IMG/VR virus record: IMGVR_UViG_3300037963_001933
Coordinates: 1 to 47,940 of that record
Strand: one strand, 5' to 3'
Length of the DNA: 47,940 bases
From: a virus
The notes below the pieces were generated by a model that was given only the letters and a program-made list of their open reading frames with translations, ran no database searches and was not told the DNA's origin. The position numbers and the translations under genes were made by a program. This document shows, in pieces, positions 28,130 through 47,940 of this stretch. Positions within the stretch are counted from its first letter, which is position 1, and each line of letters opens with the position of its first letter.

Positions 28130-28149
28130 TTATTGTTTTTTTTAGTATT

Positions 28150-28173
28150 GCAACCACCCGTTAAGATGGTTGC
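28150..28173 (-). other. Intergenic hairpin, attenuator or processing candidate
   Basis: A perfect 7-bp inverted repeat, GCAACCA (28150 to 28156) and TGGTTGC (28167 to 28173), with a 10-base loop, lies in the 55-bp gap between the 273-aa and 245-aa genes. On the minus strand the sequence after the stem is A-rich, not U-rich, so it is not a canonical terminator for the leftward transcript. On the plus strand T-rich DNA follows, but no rightward gene is seen nearby. An RNA processing, stability or attenuation element is possible. Confidence 0.4.
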
Positions 28174-28184
28174 TTTACTTTGTT

Positions 28185-29006
28185 TTACTTCATTCGTTTT
28201 TCTATATTCTTGTACACTTCCATACCTTCATCAGTTTTAAACCAAGCGGCTAAAGCTGAATATGGGTGCTCATCAAAAGGTACAGTCATTATTTTTCTAC
28301 CAGTTGAAGCCCAATTAAAAGTTCTTTGATCTGAAGTTAAAGATAATATACCAGCTTCTGTAGCTTTTATACCAAAGTTTCTAAGTTGTATATTATCATC
28401 TGTAACTAATTCTAAGAACAGTTGAGGATTTCTCTTAGCAAATATAAGTAAATCACGTTTTAATTCCTTATATGACATGCTAGATACCCTAGAACCGTTC
28501 TCTACTCTCATAACAGCCTCCATCATATCAACTTCTAAATCATTAGCCGCTTGTAAAGCAGCAACTTCAAATTCTAACCAGTCTAATTGTTGTTCTGCTT
28601 GTTTAACTGGTTTCCACTCATAATAAAGTTTATCTCTATGTGGGTGATATAAACTTAAAAATTTTTGTAAAGTTGTTTTTTCTCTAGGAACGTGTAGTAC
28701 ACCGTTTCTAAATACGATGTGAGATAATCTTTGGTCACCTTTCATTTCATCAACAAAAGGAGTTCTTTGATTTTCACAATATTTTAATTCTCTTTCAAAA
28801 CCTTTTTCTTCGTCAAAATAATAGATATTAGTAGATCTTATCATGTAAGATAATGGTTTTTTATTACCTATTAAATAATAAACTCTATCTTTTATTTCCC
28901 ATTCAGGTTTTTTAGGTTCAACTTTTTTAGGTTTCGGTGTTTCAACAACTGGTGTTTCAACAACAGGTACTTCTACCTTTTCTTTTTTTTCTTGTTTTTT
29001 TGCCAT
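28185..29006 (-). CDS. Hypothetical structural-module protein (273 aa)
   Basis: 273 aa. A basic Lys/Pro/Val-rich N-terminal tail (PVVETPVVETPKPKKVEPKK, residues 13 to 32) is followed by a compact alpha/beta region (WEIKDRVYYLIGNKKPLSYM, FRNGVLHVPREKTTLQKFLS) and a helical part with KPVKQAEQQLDWLEFEVAAL. The C-terminus has RTFNWASTGRKIMTVPFDEH. No family with known activity is recognised. It is the first gene after the terminator behind the capsid gene, so an accessory head or head-tail joining role is the most reasonable guess. Confidence 0.65.
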   Translation of the reverse strand: MAKKQEKKEKVEVPVVETPVVETPKPKKVEPKKPEWEIKDRVYYLIGNKKPLSYMIRSTNIYYFDEEKGFERELKYCENQRTPFVDEMKGDQRLSHIVFRNGVLHVPREKTTLQKFLSLYHPHRDKLYYEWKPVKQAEQQLDWLEFEVAALQAANDLEVDMMEAVMRVENGSRVSSMSYKELKRDLLIFAKRNPQLFLELVTDDNIQLRNFGIKATEAGILSLTSDQRTFNWASTGRKIMTVPFDEHPYSALAAWFKTDEGMEVYKNIEKRMK

Positions 29007-29036
29007 AATATAATATATAATAAAATTAATAAAATA

Positions 29037-29058
29037 AAGCCGAGGCCGAAGCCTCGAC
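29037..29058 (-). terminator. Rho-independent terminator with UUCG loop behind the capsid gene
   Basis: Read on the minus strand the RNA is CGAGGC-UUCG-GCCUCG, a perfect 6-bp GC-rich stem closed by a UUCG tetraloop (plus-strand positions 29041 to 29056, with an outer G-C pair), followed by CUUUAUUUUAUU. It lies 15 bp past the stop of the major capsid gene. In an AT-rich genome this is a conspicuous factor-independent terminator. It probably lets the capsid gene be expressed more strongly than the tail genes, with partial read-through. Confidence 0.85.
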
Positions 29059-29072
29059 TTTTATATAAATGC

Positions 29073-30593: not shown

Positions 30594-31730
30594 TTATTTT
30601 CGTTTTTTAATTTTAAATGTCGCTGTTTTATGATTATTATTATCTCTAACAATTCTTGCTTTAAACCCTGTTTTAGGTGCTGTAAAAGATTGTCTAGGAT
30701 CCATATTAACATTTTTGGATTTAGATATACTTTCTCTCAAAGCATCTGCTTTACCTTGCTCATAAAAATGATTTGCAATAGCATCAGGATTCATAGCTGT
30801 AAACAGTCCTTTGTGATAACCACTAGCATTTTCCATTTGACCATTTTCATTAAGAAACTTTCTTATGAAATTATTAATGTCACTCTGGTTTGTTTTTACT
30901 TTTTCAGTATCACTTACATTATACCTAAACCTTTTGTCTCCAATATTATATTCAAATCCTTTGAATTCATTATTAAAAACTTGATCAGTTTTTTGTAAAA
31001 ATGTAGACTGAGCTTGTTCTTGAATCTTTAATCTTTCTTGCGACTCATTGAAGTATTTAATAGCTTCTTGCTGTTCGTTAGTAAGCTTAGACCCCATTTT
31101 AATATCTTCATAGTATTTAGACTTTAGCCCGTCCAAGTAGGCTTTAGCGCTGGCAACTTGCTCTTTTAACGCTAGTTTTTTTCTTTTCACATCTTTTTCG
31201 TCATCTATTTTTTCGTCCCAATCAAAACTTTCTTGTACTAAAAAGTTTATTTCATCATCATCAAGATGTGGTTTTGTATCTTTGTAATAAGACCTAAGTA
31301 AATCATCATCACCATAATCATCAAAATTTCTATTTAAATTCATATAGTCATTTAGATCACCACCCGTGTCTTTCATAAAGTCAACAACCTTTTGTATATT
31401 TTCTGGTAAATCTGGTTGTTTAGGTAATTCTGGTTTTGGTGGTGGAGGTGTCTCGTTTGTTATTTCTTCTAATACTGGAGCTTCTTGTGTTTTTGTTTCC
31501 GGTTGTACTTCTTCTTGTTTTTGTACGGGCTCGGCATTTTTAAGCTCTGTAACCACTCCGTCGTTGTCAGTGTTATCTTCTTTAGTTTCATTTTCTTTTG
31601 GTTTACTCATGTCAACTTTAATGACATCTGGTGTTTTTTCAAATTTTTTAGGTTTTTTCTTTATTTTTATTTTTTCAACTTTATCGTCTACTTTAGGCTT
31701 TTCAGCCACGTTTTCTTTGTTTTCTTCCAT
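30594..31730 (-). CDS. Scaffold-like protein between portal and capsid
   Basis: 378 aa, highly charged, with little hydrophobic core. Residues 1 to about 110 are a disordered Lys/Glu/Pro tract (KPKVDDKVEKIKIKKKPKKF, then PPPPKPELPKQPDLPENIQK). The middle is acidic and helical (DDYGDDDLLRSYYKDTKPHL, DDEINFLVQESFDWDEKIDD), with coiled-coil-like runs to about residue 245 (ALKEQVASAKAYLDGLKSKY). The C-terminal end is basic (TGFKARIVRDNNNHKTATFK). A charged, helical protein just before the capsid gene is the usual signature of a phage scaffolding protein, whose basic tail contacts the capsid inside the prohead. Assigned by position and composition only. Confidence 0.75.
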   Translation of the reverse strand: MEENKENVAEKPKVDDKVEKIKIKKKPKKFEKTPDVIKVDMSKPKENETKEDNTDNDGVVTELKNAEPVQKQEEVQPETKTQEAPVLEEITNETPPPPKPELPKQPDLPENIQKVVDFMKDTGGDLNDYMNLNRNFDDYGDDDLLRSYYKDTKPHLDDDEINFLVQESFDWDEKIDDEKDVKRKKLALKEQVASAKAYLDGLKSKYYEDIKMGSKLTNEQQEAIKYFNESQERLKIQEQAQSTFLQKTDQVFNNEFKGFEYNIGDKRFRYNVSDTEKVKTNQSDINNFIRKFLNENGQMENASGYHKGLFTAMNPDAIANHFYEQGKADALRESISKSKNVNMDPRQSFTAPKTGFKARIVRDNNNHKTATFKIKKRK

Positions 31731-31757
31731 AATATAATATAATAATAATTAATAATT

Positions 31758-44884: not shown

Positions 44885-45142
44885 TTATCTTTTAACTTTC
44901 TTTTTAGCTTCTGCAAGCTGTTTAGCAAAATCTCCTTTTACATAACCGTCTATATTACCTATTCTTTCTTCTTCAGTCATGTTTGCTATGTCTTCCGCAC
45001 TATAAGTTGTACCTGTATCTCCCATGTCTTTTTGTACTTGCGCATAAACTCTATCCATGTAAGCCTCTTCTCTGTCTGTAAAGCTTTCTTTTTCTTTAAT
45101 TTTTTTATCAAATGGGCTCCAGCCCTTCATTTTGAACGCCAT
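44885..45142 (-). CDS. First gene of the leftward block: MAFK-tagged small protein (85 aa)
   Basis: 85 aa. It starts MAFKMKGWSPFDKKIKEKES (tag plus S-P-F motif), then helical FTDREEAYMDRVYAQVQKDM and a basic C-terminus AKQLAEAKKKVKR. It is the most upstream gene of the 45-kb leftward block, so the promoter for at least this set must lie in 45143 to about 45300. No family recognised. Confidence 0.75.
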   Translation of the reverse strand: MAFKMKGWSPFDKKIKEKESFTDREEAYMDRVYAQVQKDMGDTGTTYSAEDIANMTEEERIGNIDGYVKGDFAKQLAEAKKKVKR

Positions 45143-45177
45143 AATTGTTTTTTTTAATTACTTACTTATCAGTATTA

Positions 45178-45212
45178 TCACACGTATAAATACTTATTTA
45201 AGTAAAGTGTGA
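45178..45212. repeat. Nested inverted repeat at the leftward promoter side
   Basis: TCACAC (45178 to 45183) is complementary to GTGTGA (45207 to 45212), and inside it ACTTA (45192 to 45196) pairs with TAAGT (45199 to 45203). The two palindromes share roughly one centre. Located 36 bp upstream of the first leftward gene. Could be an operator or a structured leader. Confidence 0.7.
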
Positions 45213-45254
45213 CACTTGCCTGTTACTAAGGGTTTATTAATAGGCTTATGTCAC
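45209..45254. repeat. Second inverted repeat with internal loop
   Basis: GTGACA (45209 to 45214) pairs with TGTCAC (45249 to 45254), and GCCT (45218 to 45221) with AGGC (45242 to 45245), separated on each side by three unpaired bases and closed by a 20-base loop. It overlaps the first inverted repeat by four bases, so the two structures exclude each other and could switch. Confidence 0.6.
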
Positions 45255-45289
45255 AAAAAAAATGTTGTAAATATTGGAGTGTAGTGTTG

Positions 45290-45315
45290 CCCCCTACCCC
45301 TAGGCCGGCCCCCCG
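45290..45315. other. Short GC-rich island with palindromes
   Basis: A G/C-rich run of about 26 bp stands out from the surrounding A/T-rich DNA. It contains CCTAGG and the 8-bp palindrome GGCCGGCC (45303 to 45310) in a C-rich context. No gene uses it convincingly. It may be a protein-binding site, a replication-related sequence, or a trace of foreign DNA. Confidence 0.6.
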
Positions 45316-45454
45316 AAGCTTAAAACGCACTTGTAAACGCCAGCTCGCCATCGTTTTTCGTAATTATTATCCATTTTTATTCGTTTTTACTTTGCGTTTC
45401 GTTGTAATTACAAATTGCACTTACTTAAAACATTTTAGCTTTTTCCTACATAGT

Positions 45455-45489
45455 AAATACGAACGCATTTGGATAATATATATGTAAAT
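45455..45489 (+). promoter_or_regulatory. Six-copy rightward element, copy 1
   Basis: AAATA, then a 12-base core CGAACGCATTTG, then GATAATATA and TATGTAAAT. An ACA triplet lies four bases before AAATA, as in every copy. This copy has no convincing gene before copy 2, only an eight-codon frame, so it may drive a leader RNA or be a relic. The element's nature is discussed under findings. Confidence 0.8.
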
Positions 45490-45493
45490 TGAA

Positions 45494-45505
45494 ACAAACT
45501 AAATA
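45494..45505 (+). repeat. Left-half remnant of the six-copy element
   Basis: ACAAACTAAATA matches exactly the left flank of copies 3, 5 and 6 but is followed by TAAAG instead of the CGA core and GATAATATA. It looks like a partial copy left by recombination or decay just after copy 1. Confidence 0.55.
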
Positions 45506-45594
45506 TAAAGAAAAACAATTACACAATGAGAAAGTCGCGGCAATACATGTAATACAAAAATAATAAGTAAACAAACAATATACTTTTACAATGT

Positions 45595-45628
45595 AAATAC
45601 GAGACTAATTGGATAATATATATAGAAA
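45595..45628 (+). promoter_or_regulatory. Six-copy rightward element, copy 2
   Basis: AAATA, core CGAGACTAATTG, then GATAATATA and TATAGAAA. It ends about 28 bases before the ATG of the 72-aa gene at 45656, a normal leader length if transcription starts just after the TAATATA block. Confidence 0.85.
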
Positions 45629-45655
45629 TAATAATAATAATTAAAATAAATAAAA

Positions 45656-45874
45656 ATGGAAAGAAAATTAATAAATTTATACTGCAATAATACTAATAAA
45701 TTAAAATACTCAATGGATATTGATATTAATATTGATCACACTTCTGAAGAATTTGAAGAAATATACATTGGAGAAATGATTGAATTATTCAATATTACTC
45801 CTGAGAAAATGAGAACACTATACCATGATATTACTACTAAATATATTCATGATCACACAAACTCAATTAAGTAA
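45656..45874 (+). CDS. Small acidic early-type protein (72 aa)
   Basis: 72 aa: MERKLINLYCNNTNKLKYSM then an acidic stretch DINIDHTSEEFEEIYIGEMI and helical ITPEKMRTLYHDITTKYIHD. The leader is pure A/T without Shine-Dalgarno (AATAAATAAAAATGG). No family recognised. It is the first clear gene of the rightward set, behind copy 2 of the repeated element; a host-takeover or regulatory role is likely but unproven. Confidence 0.75.
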   Translation: MERKLINLYCNNTNKLKYSMDIDINIDHTSEEFEEIYIGEMIELFNITPEKMRTLYHDITTKYIHDHTNSIK

Positions 45875-45892
45875 TAATATAAATTACAAACT

Positions 45893-45927
45893 AAATACGA
45901 AGTATATTGGATAATATAAATGTAAAT
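45893..45927 (+). promoter_or_regulatory. Six-copy rightward element, copy 3
   Basis: Preceded by ACAAACT; AAATA, core CGAAGTATATTG, then GATAATATA and AATGTAAAT. Lies in the 88-bp gap before the 80-aa gene at 45963. Confidence 0.85.
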
Positions 45928-45962
45928 AAAATAAAATAAATAATAATTAAAAATTAAAAACT

Positions 45963-46205
45963 ATGTCAAACTTAAAAAACACTTTAAAAACTAAAAGATT
46001 CGTAATCAGAAAGTCATTAATCGGTAAAAATACTATAATTACTTTCGTAAACAAAAAACAAGAAAAAGTATCATATAATCATGACGAAGTATATAATACT
46101 CACAAAGAAAGATTTGAAGCAATGAACTGTTTTGCAAAGTACAAATCATACACTAACTCAAATGCAATTCCAGCATTTTGCAGAGACTTACAAATCACTG
46201 CGTAG
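45963..46205 (+). CDS. Small basic early-type protein (80 aa)
   Basis: 80 aa: MSNLKNTLKTKRFVIRKSLI, GKNTIITFVNKKQEKVSYNH and an end NSNAIPAFCRDLQITA. Basic in the first half, with a strand-turn-strand look (RKSLIGKNTIITFVNKKQEK). No domain known. Preceded by copy 3 of the element and an A-rich leader. The gene is followed by a 179-bp non-coding stretch with tRNA-like sequence. Confidence 0.75.
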   Translation: MSNLKNTLKTKRFVIRKSLIGKNTIITFVNKKQEKVSYNHDEVYNTHKERFEAMNCFAKYKSYTNSNAIPAFCRDLQITA

Positions 46206-46384
46206 TGTAAAAAACATGTCAGTAGTAACTCCACGTGAAGTACAGATTAGCGTGTAGTGGGCAGAGTCGTAGTTCCACGTTGTTTAGCGACTTATAAAAA
46301 ATGCGAACAAGTATCAGTAGTAATGGTTAATGTGAGTTCGATTCTCACGCTACTACAAATGTTTAACTATAAAAATATATAATT
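46206..46384 (+). ncRNA. Structured intergenic stretch with a tRNA-like T-arm
   Basis: Less A/T-rich than its surroundings. Positions 46332 to 46348 are a canonical T-arm: GTGAG, TTCGATT, CTCAC, followed by GCTACTA and C, as in the 3' end of a tRNA. No matching 5' acceptor, D-arm or anticodon arm can be folded at the right distance, so this is not a complete tRNA gene. Upstream are TAGCGTG (46248 to 46254), complementary to CACGCTA (46346 to 46352), GTGG/CCAC (46257/46275) and AGTCG/CGACT (46265/46288). It may be a small structured RNA, a decayed tRNA, or a tRNA 3'-end sequence of the kind used as an attachment site. Confidence 0.4.
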
Positions 46385-46531
46385 ATGAAAGTAACTTGTA
46401 AAAAAACTGGTAAAGATATGACCAGCAAAGTAATAAAAAATCTTGAAAAGTCTTTAATTAAAGATGGTTTCAAAATAGTAAGTAAATCACCATACAGAGA
46501 TAAAAATGGTAACTTCATTAATACAAAATAA
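46385..46531 (+). CDS. Very small basic protein (48 aa)
   Basis: 48 codons, MKVTCKKTGKDMTSKVIKNL, EKSLIKDGFKIVSKSPYRDK, ending NFINTK. Lys-rich, with an A/T-rich leader (ATATATAATT ATG). Its stop TAA overlaps the AAATA of the next repeated element. It has no copy of the element directly upstream, so it is probably read from the preceding unit or from the structured stretch. No family recognised; short but with plausible coding character. Confidence 0.6.
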   Translation: MKVTCKKTGKDMTSKVIKNLEKSLIKDGFKIVSKSPYRDKNGNFINTK

Positions 46532-46564
46532 ATACGACAATAGTCGGATAATAATAATGTAAAT
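46530..46564 (+). promoter_or_regulatory. Six-copy rightward element, copy 4
   Basis: AAATA, core CGACAATAGTCG (perfect 4-bp stem CGAC/GTCG), then GATAATAAT and AATGTAAAT. Its first two bases overlap the stop of the 48-aa gene, and the next start is only 18 bases after GATAATAAT. Confidence 0.85.
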
Positions 46565-46572
46565 AATATAAT

Positions 46573-46827
46573 ATGACAAAAAGAAATTTTAGTATAACAA
46601 GAGGGAATACACCGGGCGAGTGGTACCACGCAAAAGTAACTGATAGTTATGGCAATGAGTATGATAATTACTTTGAGACAGCGGACAAAGCAAATGACTG
46701 GATTTACTATGTGTGGGAAAAAGAAGACTGGTTTAATAGTGCAAACTCACAAGAATTACTAGCAAATGCTATTGCTAACTGTATAGAAATAGATAAAGAA
46801 AATGGTATAGAACCAAGTTTAGATTAA
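46573..46827 (+). CDS. Small acidic early-type protein (84 aa)
   Basis: 84 aa. The first half has strand-like segments with aromatics (NFSITRGNTPGEWYHAKVTD, YGNEYDNYFETADKANDWIY), the second half is helical (EDWFNSANSQELLANAIANC) and the end acidic. The G-E-W-Y-H-A-K-V-T-D and N-D-W-I-Y pattern suggests a compact alpha/beta fold. Unknown function; belongs to the unit started by copy 4. Confidence 0.75.
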   Translation: MTKRNFSITRGNTPGEWYHAKVTDSYGNEYDNYFETADKANDWIYYVWEKEDWFNSANSQELLANAIANCIEIDKENGIEPSLD

Positions 46828-46833
46828 CAAACT

Positions 46834-46866
46834 AAATACGATTACTAACGGATAATATAATTGAAT
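46834..46866 (+). promoter_or_regulatory. Six-copy rightward element, copy 5
   Basis: Preceded by ACAAACT; AAATA, core CGATTACTAACG, then GATAATATA and ATTGAAT. The ATG of the phosphatase gene follows only seven bases after GATAATATA, so if this is a promoter the transcript would be nearly leaderless. Confidence 0.85.
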
Positions 46867-47412
46867 ATGAAATATAATAAACTAACATACGGAGCAAGTG
46901 TCTTTGACTTTGACGAGACAGTAGGTTACAGCAACAACTTTGTTTTAGCCACTAAAAAAGGTCACAATACTATTAAAATTGACTCTGCTATGTGGCCAGA
47001 AGTTGGTGCAAAAATGATGAGTGAAGGTTGGAAAATGGATTTTACTGACTTCAATAAAGTAACAGATGGTAAACCAGGTCCACTTATCGGTAAGTTAAAA
47101 AACCAAATAGAAAAATATGGTAATGACCAAGTTTATATACTAACAGCTCGACACTCTGATAGTGAGCAAGCAATACATAACTGGCTATTGTCACAAAATA
47201 TAGAGCTAAAGCGAGAAAATATAGTAGGATTAGGTAACTCAACAGGCGAAGCAAAGGCTGAGTGGATACAAGAAAACTTAATACTATCAGGTATAAATGA
47301 CATATACTTTGTAGATGATGCGTTTAGCAACGTACAAGCAGTACAAGAAATGTTCAACGAGTATCCAAAAGGATTCTTAGTAAAAGGTGGTAAATCAATA
47401 ATAACTAAATAA
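46867..47412 (+). CDS. HAD-superfamily phosphatase
   Basis: I place the start at ATG 46867 (MKYNKLTYGASVF, 181 aa); a TTG two codons earlier falls inside the repeated element and is not needed. Motif I is D14-F-D16-E-T18 (nucleophile and acid/base Asp), motif II Y-I-L-T93-A-R-H, motif III a Lys in STGEAKAEWI (K120), motif IV D150-D151 in DIYFVDDAFSNVQAV. All HAD catalytic residues are present, so a Mg-dependent phosphate hydrolase is likely. The cap is short and mostly helical. The substrate cannot be read; phage HAD proteins include 5'-nucleotidases and end-repair phosphatases. It is followed by a small exported protein six bases on. Confidence 0.85.
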   Translation: MKYNKLTYGASVFDFDETVGYSNNFVLATKKGHNTIKIDSAMWPEVGAKMMSEGWKMDFTDFNKVTDGKPGPLIGKLKNQIEKYGNDQVYILTARHSDSEQAIHNWLLSQNIELKRENIVGLGNSTGEAKAEWIQENLILSGINDIYFVDDAFSNVQAVQEMFNEYPKGFLVKGGKSIITK

Positions 47413-47418
47413 AATAAT

Positions 47419-47685
47419 ATGAAGAAAATTAAATTATGTGTAGCTGCTATGCTACTAACGTGCACAACTTATGCAAACACAAGTGATACTACAAAACCAT
47501 CAGTAGACACAGAAGAAAGAGGTAAACTCAAGTTTCAAATACTAAATATGATAGAAGGTATACAAAGAGATATGTACTATGGCTATATACCTTACAATCA
47601 AGGTAATTACTATGTAAACTTATTAGTAGATATGTTACCTAAACCAATAGATTCTTGGTGTGAAAACTGTGATGAGTTAGACTAA
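47419..47685 (+). CDS. Small exported protein (88 aa)
   Basis: 88 aa. MKKIKLCVAAMLLTCTTYAN is a signal peptide with likely cleavage after YAN or TYA. The mature part (TKPSVDTEERGKLKFQILNM, YYGYIPYNQGNYYVNLLVDM) is helical with aromatics and ends IDSWCENCDELD with two cysteines three apart. No family recognised. It shares a transcript with the HAD gene, being without a repeated element of its own. A phage early protein sent to the envelope could act in superinfection exclusion; that is inference. Confidence 0.75.
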   Translation: MKKIKLCVAAMLLTCTTYANTSDTTKPSVDTEERGKLKFQILNMIEGIQRDMYYGYIPYNQGNYYVNLLVDMLPKPIDSWCENCDELD

Positions 47686-47694
47686 TTACAAACT

Positions 47695-47729
47695 AAATAC
47701 GACACGAGTCGGATAATATAAATGTTAAA
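47695..47729 (+). promoter_or_regulatory. Six-copy rightward element, copy 6
   Basis: Preceded by ATTACAAACT; AAATA, core CGACACGAGTCG (perfect 4-bp stem), then GATAATATA and AATGTTAAA. Lies between the exported-protein gene and the 58-aa gene starting at 47748. Confidence 0.85.
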
Positions 47730-47747
47730 CAAATAAAATAATATAAT

Positions 47748-47924
47748 ATGCAAAACACAATTAAATTTCTAAAGCCAAACATAACTACTGGCTTACAAAA
47801 AATCCAACTAAATGGTATTACTTATAAACCATATACCATTTGCTCTCTTGCTGATACTAAATTTGGCACAGATGAAGTTACTAGCTGGTTTAACTACAAA
47901 GGTTTAACTTATATAGCAGAGTAA
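47748..47924 (+). CDS. Very small early-type protein (58 aa)
   Basis: 58 aa: MQNTIKFLKPNITTGLQKIQ, LNGITYKPYTICSLADTKFG, ending FNYKGLTYIAE. The leader is AAATAAAATAATATAATATG, as usual here. Beta-type with aromatics; no family recognised. Preceded by copy 6 of the element. Confidence 0.7.
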   Translation: MQNTIKFLKPNITTGLQKIQLNGITYKPYTICSLADTKFGTDEVTSWFNYKGLTYIAE

Positions 47925-47925
47925 T

Positions 47926-47940
47926 ATGAAGTGTAAATGT
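47926..47940 (+). CDS. Start of a further gene, cut by the window edge
   Basis: One base after the previous stop (TAAT ATG) an open frame MKCKC... runs off the right edge. The close spacing would suit translational coupling, but only five codons are visible, so this is weakly supported. Confidence 0.35.

Follow-up and report, generated by a model that had tools for sequence, protein, structure and literature searches.

A repeated promoter array in the early block of uncultured Bacteroidota podophages, with a phage sigma factor as its possible reader

What starts transcription of the small early genes of an uncultured podophage, and which RNA polymerase reads the signal, are the questions raised by a repeated element near the right-hand end of IMG/VR record IMGVR_UViG_3300037963_001933. 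The window, i.e., the whole 47.9-kb stretch that was analyzed (positions 1 to 47,940), is a virus fragment whose leftward half encodes portal, terminase, GroEL, and virion proteins related to those of Cellulophaga phage phi38:1 and its relatives, and whose rightward end carries small genes without family matches. A first-pass annotation had described a promoter-like, multicopy element ahead of rightward early genes in a Bacteroidota phage, with six plus-strand copies at 45455, 45595, 45893, 46530, 46834, and 47695. This description is supported: all six copies read AAATACGA-N9-GATAAT with a gap of exactly nine bases, against 0.01 copies expected in shuffled windows. Judged from its sequence context, the element is almost certainly a transcription promoter, and there is about an even chance that the array is read by the host core RNA polymerase carrying a phage-encoded sigma factor. 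The copies and associated sequences are as follows.

45446..45486, plus strand: array promoter 1 (CTACATAGTAAATACGA-N9-GATAATATATATGTA), matrix score 38.9 bits
45586..45626, plus strand: array promoter 2, with leader sequence AACAAANNATATACTTTTACAA before it, 37.2 bits
45884..45924, plus strand: array promoter 3, exact consensus, 48.7 bits
46521..46561, plus strand: array promoter 4, overlapping the stop codon of the preceding open reading frame (ORF), 43.1 bits
46825..46865, plus strand: array promoter 5, 47.1 bits
47686..47726, plus strand: array promoter 6, 45.5 bits
45357..45397, minus strand: weaker copy, divergent and pointing toward the leftward GroEL/structural genes, 30.1 bits
45494..45505, plus strand: left-half remnant ACAAACTAAATA, rest of the motif missing
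45570..45591, plus strand: leader block AACAAACAATATACTTTTACAA, overlapping the start of promoter 2

In full, the motif reads TTACAAACTAAATACGA-N9-GATAATATA. A logo of 192 sites reads TTACAAACTAAATACGA, eight variable bases, R, and GATAATATAAATR, and the conserved part reaches further upstream, to TTACAAACT, than was first described; the 12-base "core" of that description is CGA plus the nine variable bases. The invariant length claimed for this core holds, as GATAAT lies at exactly +9 in 156 of 164 sites defined by the upstream half alone, and most of the remaining 8 have GATATT, GATAAC, or GATTAT at the same position. The 17 bp between ACAAACT and GATAAT correspond to the classical geometry of sigma-70 promoters, and a purine is found at the expected start about 6 nucleotides past the -10 element. 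Across 483 sites, ATG follows GATAAT at a median distance of 31 bp, the distribution peaking at 10 to 14 and 30 to 34 bp, and the sites avoid ORFs, with 23 of 483 inside a sense ORF versus 394 of 850 random positions (46%). The claim that copies never lie inside genes is thus broadly right; in the window, the 46530 copy shares bases with the stop codon of the ORF before it. The base preceding GATAAT varies half as much within genomes as between them, and the spacer shows no such difference.

The remnant noted at 45494 is present. The statement that all copies lie on the plus strand is true of the six but not complete, because a divergent minus-strand copy, GCAAAGTAAAAACGA-N9-GATAATAATTACG, occupies 45357 to 45397; it scores 30 bits, the weakest of the six scoring 37 bits, and divergent copies occur in 5 of 49 relatives as well. 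In 24 of 74 relatives, the leader AACAAANNATATACTTTTACAA stands before one copy of the array, most often the first or second, and the TACTTTT of the leader block is found at 0.5% of random positions. A host sigma-A promoter inside the leader block (TATACTTTTACAA) was considered, but the match is only approximate, and it is not claimed.

The core had also been read as a stem-loop with hints of covariation. Its pairing is seen in the six copies of the window only. Among 176 distinct cores from relatives, pairs 1-12, 2-11, 3-10, and 4-9 form in 45, 70, 34, and 35%, respectively; pair 2-11 is mostly G-T (18% Watson-Crick), the value for pair 4-9 is close to that of shuffled cores (36%), and correlations among the nine core bases lie mainly between neighbors. 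There is no covariation, so the stem-loop is not borne out, hairpin pairing is refuted, and the core is best described as a spacer rather than a stem. A conserved stem with compensatory changes, a feature of N4-type hairpin early promoters, was not found in these cores. Rfam returned no match at gathering thresholds, and sub-threshold snoRNA matches are attributable to chance.

How widely the array occurs was examined in IMG/VR, where a motif scan returned 119 stretches, in which bases outside the search pattern separate 194 genuine sites from 34 chance hits. The array is present, on one strand, in more than 80 IMG/VR loci; whole records contain up to 23 copies, mostly on one strand in nearly all of 45 records, compared with 0 to 2 for a reversed-pattern control. 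A matrix scan of five large related records found no sites outside the early block with its operon, and none at all in shuffled genomes, phi38:1, or MW202828. The carriers are podophages of about 65 to 70 kb whose structural genes resemble those of Pervagoviridae, and the array is confined to an early block of 5 to 8 kb, with 5 to 12 near-identical copies, one ahead of most small early genes. BLAST of the motif against phages gave no match, and a literature search found no published description of it.

Relatives have, in the operon that follows the array, a gene for a protein containing sigma-70 regions 2 and 4. This link was invisible to the first-pass annotation because the window ends before the sigma gene, and the evidence on the sigma factor comes from relatives with the same array. 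The best match of its profile among solved structures is FliA sigma-28 (E value of 1.5e-10), and its predicted model matches sigma factors in fold comparison; it has no sequence match in any cultured phage record, and IMG/VR holds at least 460 sigma-bearing matches. All motif-bearing records of at least 59 kb encode the sigma factor, those without it being shorter fragments. Conversely, among the 49 sigma loci whose upstream sequence spans 5 kb or more, 48 carry the array (295 sense versus 5 antisense sites), and the lone exception, L263, has eight copies of GGTTGACACGA-N9-GATAAT, a jointly altered array. For 85 distinct sigmas, the counts are 501 sense versus 12 antisense sites. Other lineages that the strict pattern missed have jointly altered arrays of their own, with unchanged geometry: L298 has ACGGRGCAAACACG, L291 and L299 have ACAAAAATAATACG, and L251 and L310 have no ACGA but do have ACAAAC 17 to 18 bp from GATAAT. 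No array was recovered in L320. A 206-amino-acid (aa) protein with a C-terminal helix-turn-helix (HTH) adjoins the sigma factor in 84 of the 85 loci (e.g., L135:11363-11983) and has no Pfam, PHROG, or significant fold match. An association of sigma region 2.4 residues Ser108 and Lys121 with T before GATAAT was not used, as the HTH protein shows association too and the signal is confounded by ancestry. In G011 (L129 and L132), the early block stands at both record ends as two similar, nonidentical copies, and in G040 and G022, the sigma gene is present twice; these doublings may represent strain assembly overlap or terminal repeats.

The sigma factor and the motif are also absent together. MW202828, whose terminase is 65% identical, and 19 further nearby records (a sister group of 20 records) have neither, a pattern of co-occurrence and co-absence that is confounded by exchange of the whole early half; because this entire half differs between the groups, the contrast is an association and not proof of the reader. 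Host-type TAnnTTTG boxes are enriched upstream of genes in phi38:1 (8 versus 1.6 expected) and MW202828 (10 versus 0.8), and no enrichment before genes was found in six sigma-bearing genomes (7 versus 5 in total). Bacteroidota sigma-A promoters carry TAnnTTTG at -12 to -5 (PMC9723704), a position comparable to that of the -10 element of the array, which has no such box. That the motif does not match TAnnTTTG, as already noted from the window, is confirmed by the 192-site logo, and the logo and the genome-wide box counts together rule out a host sigma-A box as its identity. The Escherichia coli sigma-70 consensus has fewer matches than shuffles. MW202828 (L182) has between 32700 and 44200 a repeat of its own, 14 copies of a perfect palindrome, TGTCGTTAACGACA, mostly GTGTCGTTAACGACAC, which stand mostly directly ahead of early genes, where the window's clade has its promoter array.

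The early genes along the array in the window are as follows.

45656..45874, plus strand: small early gene, 72 aa, no family match
45963..46205, plus strand: early gene, 80 aa, shared more widely than any other gene that has an array promoter of its own
46385..46531, plus strand: small early gene, 48 aa
46573..46827, plus strand: small early gene, 84 aa
46867..47412, plus strand: early gene, about 181 aa
47419..47685, plus strand: early gene, 88 aa
47748..47924, plus strand: early gene, 58 aa, with homologs in 3 of 5 other sigma-bearing genomes compared

In 66 genomes, the early block comprises 365 gene families, 220 of them seen once. The family of the 80-aa gene occurs in 50 of the 66 and has its own promoter in 51 of 57 copies; some other families nearly always have their own element as well (37/44 and 30/37), and others almost never do (0/36 and 1/36), which upholds the proposed link of the element to particular genes in a variable block. 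The idea of gene shuffling finds only partial support. The blocks differ greatly in the genes they hold, yet families present in more than one genome keep a consistent order in 93.5% of comparisons. The ends of between-genome similarity do cluster at the element, but this clustering is confounded by the element's own conservation. Genes have clearly been gained and lost at the promoter units; a role of the element in driving shuffling is conjectural. Between two of the early genes, the stretch from 46206 to 46384 ends in a tRNA-like T-arm and acceptor (GTGAGTTCGATTCTCACGCTACTAC) and is perhaps a tRNA relic; ARAGORN and Rfam found no tRNA in it, and in relatives, tRNA-like ends lie just ahead of array copies.

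Among the virion genes, a separate motif stands at two start codons.

29004..29017, minus strand: late-type motif TATATTATATTATG, directly on the start codon of the gene that follows the major capsid protein-like gene
31728..31741, minus strand: the same late-type motif again, on the start codon of the gene that follows the portal gene

Each of the six sigma-bearing genomes has exactly two TATATTATATTATG sites before genes, and MW202828 has TAnnTTTG host boxes in their place at the same late positions. The motif is a candidate late promoter, possibly for leaderless mRNAs. GC-rich, terminator-type hairpins at 28130 to 28184 and 29007 to 29072 precede two virion genes, in the six genomes and in phi38:1.

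A scan of bacterial genomes detected near-perfect copies of the array motif, with 0 to 1 mismatches, in four Flavobacteriia metagenome-assembled genomes (MAGs), at L150:3775, L153:5771, L152:322, L154:141, and L155:4273. These four MAGs have no weaker sites and nothing at 2 to 3 mismatches. The copies lie mostly ahead of small secreted proteins, and we read the genes behind them as lipocalin-like or TerB-like. Among 300 genomes of the same family, the motif is present in only 2.

From these sequence data, we infer the transcription start, temporal class, and reader of the array. Each promoter comprises a -35 element, (A)CAAACT, and, 17 bp further on, a -10 element, GATAAT; an extra conserved block, AAATACGA, lies at about -29 to -22, and the expected start is a purine. 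The mRNAs started from the copies would be short and often almost without a leader, each covering one or a few of the small early genes, and the replication operon would be fed by the last promoter of the array. The reader would be the host core RNA polymerase with the FliA/sigma-28-like phage sigma factor, possibly helped by the adjoining HTH protein, and the array would then be a positive-feedback promoter set under phage control, independent of host sigma-A; another promoter would then have to make the first sigma. The strict association of sigma and array, the pairing of a FliA-like protein with a FliA-like GATAA -10 element, the joint change of whole arrays, and the loss of host boxes argue for this proposal. 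The FliA/sigma-28 promoter consensus is TAAA-N15-GCCGATAA. GATAA is common to both promoter types, and FliA is the best solved match of the sigma profile, but the array differs in its -35 element, its spacing to TAAA, and its extra ACGA block, and the FliA resemblance is a lead rather than a test. Similar known factors are gp36 of phiEco32 and gp47 of 7-11, which are also podophage proteins of the sigma-70 family with a conserved phage-specific motif and divergent early and late gene clusters (PMC8948821). The 7-11 promoters are bipartite with a 16-bp spacer, and in both phages the sigma promoters precede middle and late genes, at 6 to 8 sites (PMC8948821). In contrast, the 5 to 12 copies described here lie in the early block, with none in the late cluster, and their -35 and -10 elements are set at a fixed spacing with another conserved block in between.

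Several observations weigh against a phage sigma factor as the reader. The sigma factors of phiEco32 and 7-11 read middle and late promoters, and the early ones use host sigma-70 (PMC8948821); a host-type promoter for the first sigma is not evident from the TAnnTTTG counts in the six sigma-bearing genomes; and the sister group has exchanged its whole early and replication half, so that the co-occurrence is not specific to sigma. The recognition helix of sigma region 4 is conserved although the upstream half of the motif drifts, and that of the HTH protein is conserved too, so neither is a clear match for this half, and association statistics single out neither. The copies on MAG contigs are places where a host protein might read the motif. 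In the main rival reading, which we judge less likely, the array is a set of immediate-early promoters whose reader is a host holoenzyme other than that of sigma-A, with an alternative host sigma or a host activator, and the phage sigma produced from the array reads the late TATATTATATTATG. Such a division would fit the position of the array in the block expected to be transcribed first, with sigma in the operon behind, the middle/late targets of phage sigmas whose targets are known, the separate late-type motif where MW202828 has host boxes, and the near-perfect chromosomal copies. It fits less well with a motif that is not TAnnTTTG and is so rare in same-family genomes, with whole arrays that shift jointly by phage lineage, and with the absence of the array from the sigma-less sister group. 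A bolder form of phage control is unlikely, namely, that host sigma-A promoters have been abandoned altogether, with early genes on the array, late genes on TATATTATATTATG, phage-controlled specificity throughout, and the Flavobacteriia copies marking host genes that infection switches on through the phage sigma.

A reader of the kind known from N4 or crAss-like phages, an RNA polymerase carried in the virion or encoded by the phage, would suit the rigid spacing and the giant virion proteins of the window (3605 and 2101 aa). We consider this very unlikely, as no D-x-D-G-D motif and no match to solved RNA polymerases were found, the giant protein is conserved in a C-terminal stretch that has no recognized polymerase motif, and the covariation test lends no support to hairpin recognition; a search of 31 records also gave no T7-like RNA polymerase match, with a control that was equally silent. 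Least in keeping with the data is a hairpin, as regulatory RNA or DNA stem-loop, or a T4-type promoter/stem-loop (PeSL) cassette that shuffles genes, which we regard as extremely improbable. Some cores are indeed palindromic (e.g., CGACACGAGTCG), certain genes nearly always come with their own copy, and between-genome similarity often stops at the element, which a conserved element alone would produce; however, covariation is absent, gene order is mostly kept, and no terminator was found. T4 early promoters are of the host sigma-70 type. The array shares with PeSL cassettes (Arbiol 2010 and Comeau 2014, cited in PMC4503421) the repeated early promoters, as far as sequence can tell, the variable small-gene region, and particular genes that travel with their own promoter. 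PeSL cassettes have a stem-loop/terminator for each promoter, and the window has no terminator-like hairpin in its early region (45100 to 47940), so the T4-type cassette proposed in the first-pass annotation lacks a defining feature here.

A readable promoter code of some 500 promoters, with their polarity known and a phage sigma factor as their probable reader, would become available for this abundant uncultured clade of Bacteroidota podophages, and within it the array pinpoints the early, host-takeover gene of each unit. The roughly 85 sigma lineages, each with its own jointly shifted array, are a natural data set for studying how promoters and the factor that reads them shift in concert. 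The sigma factor and its promoters are also a candidate orthogonal pair for Bacteroidota, in which few genetic tools work.

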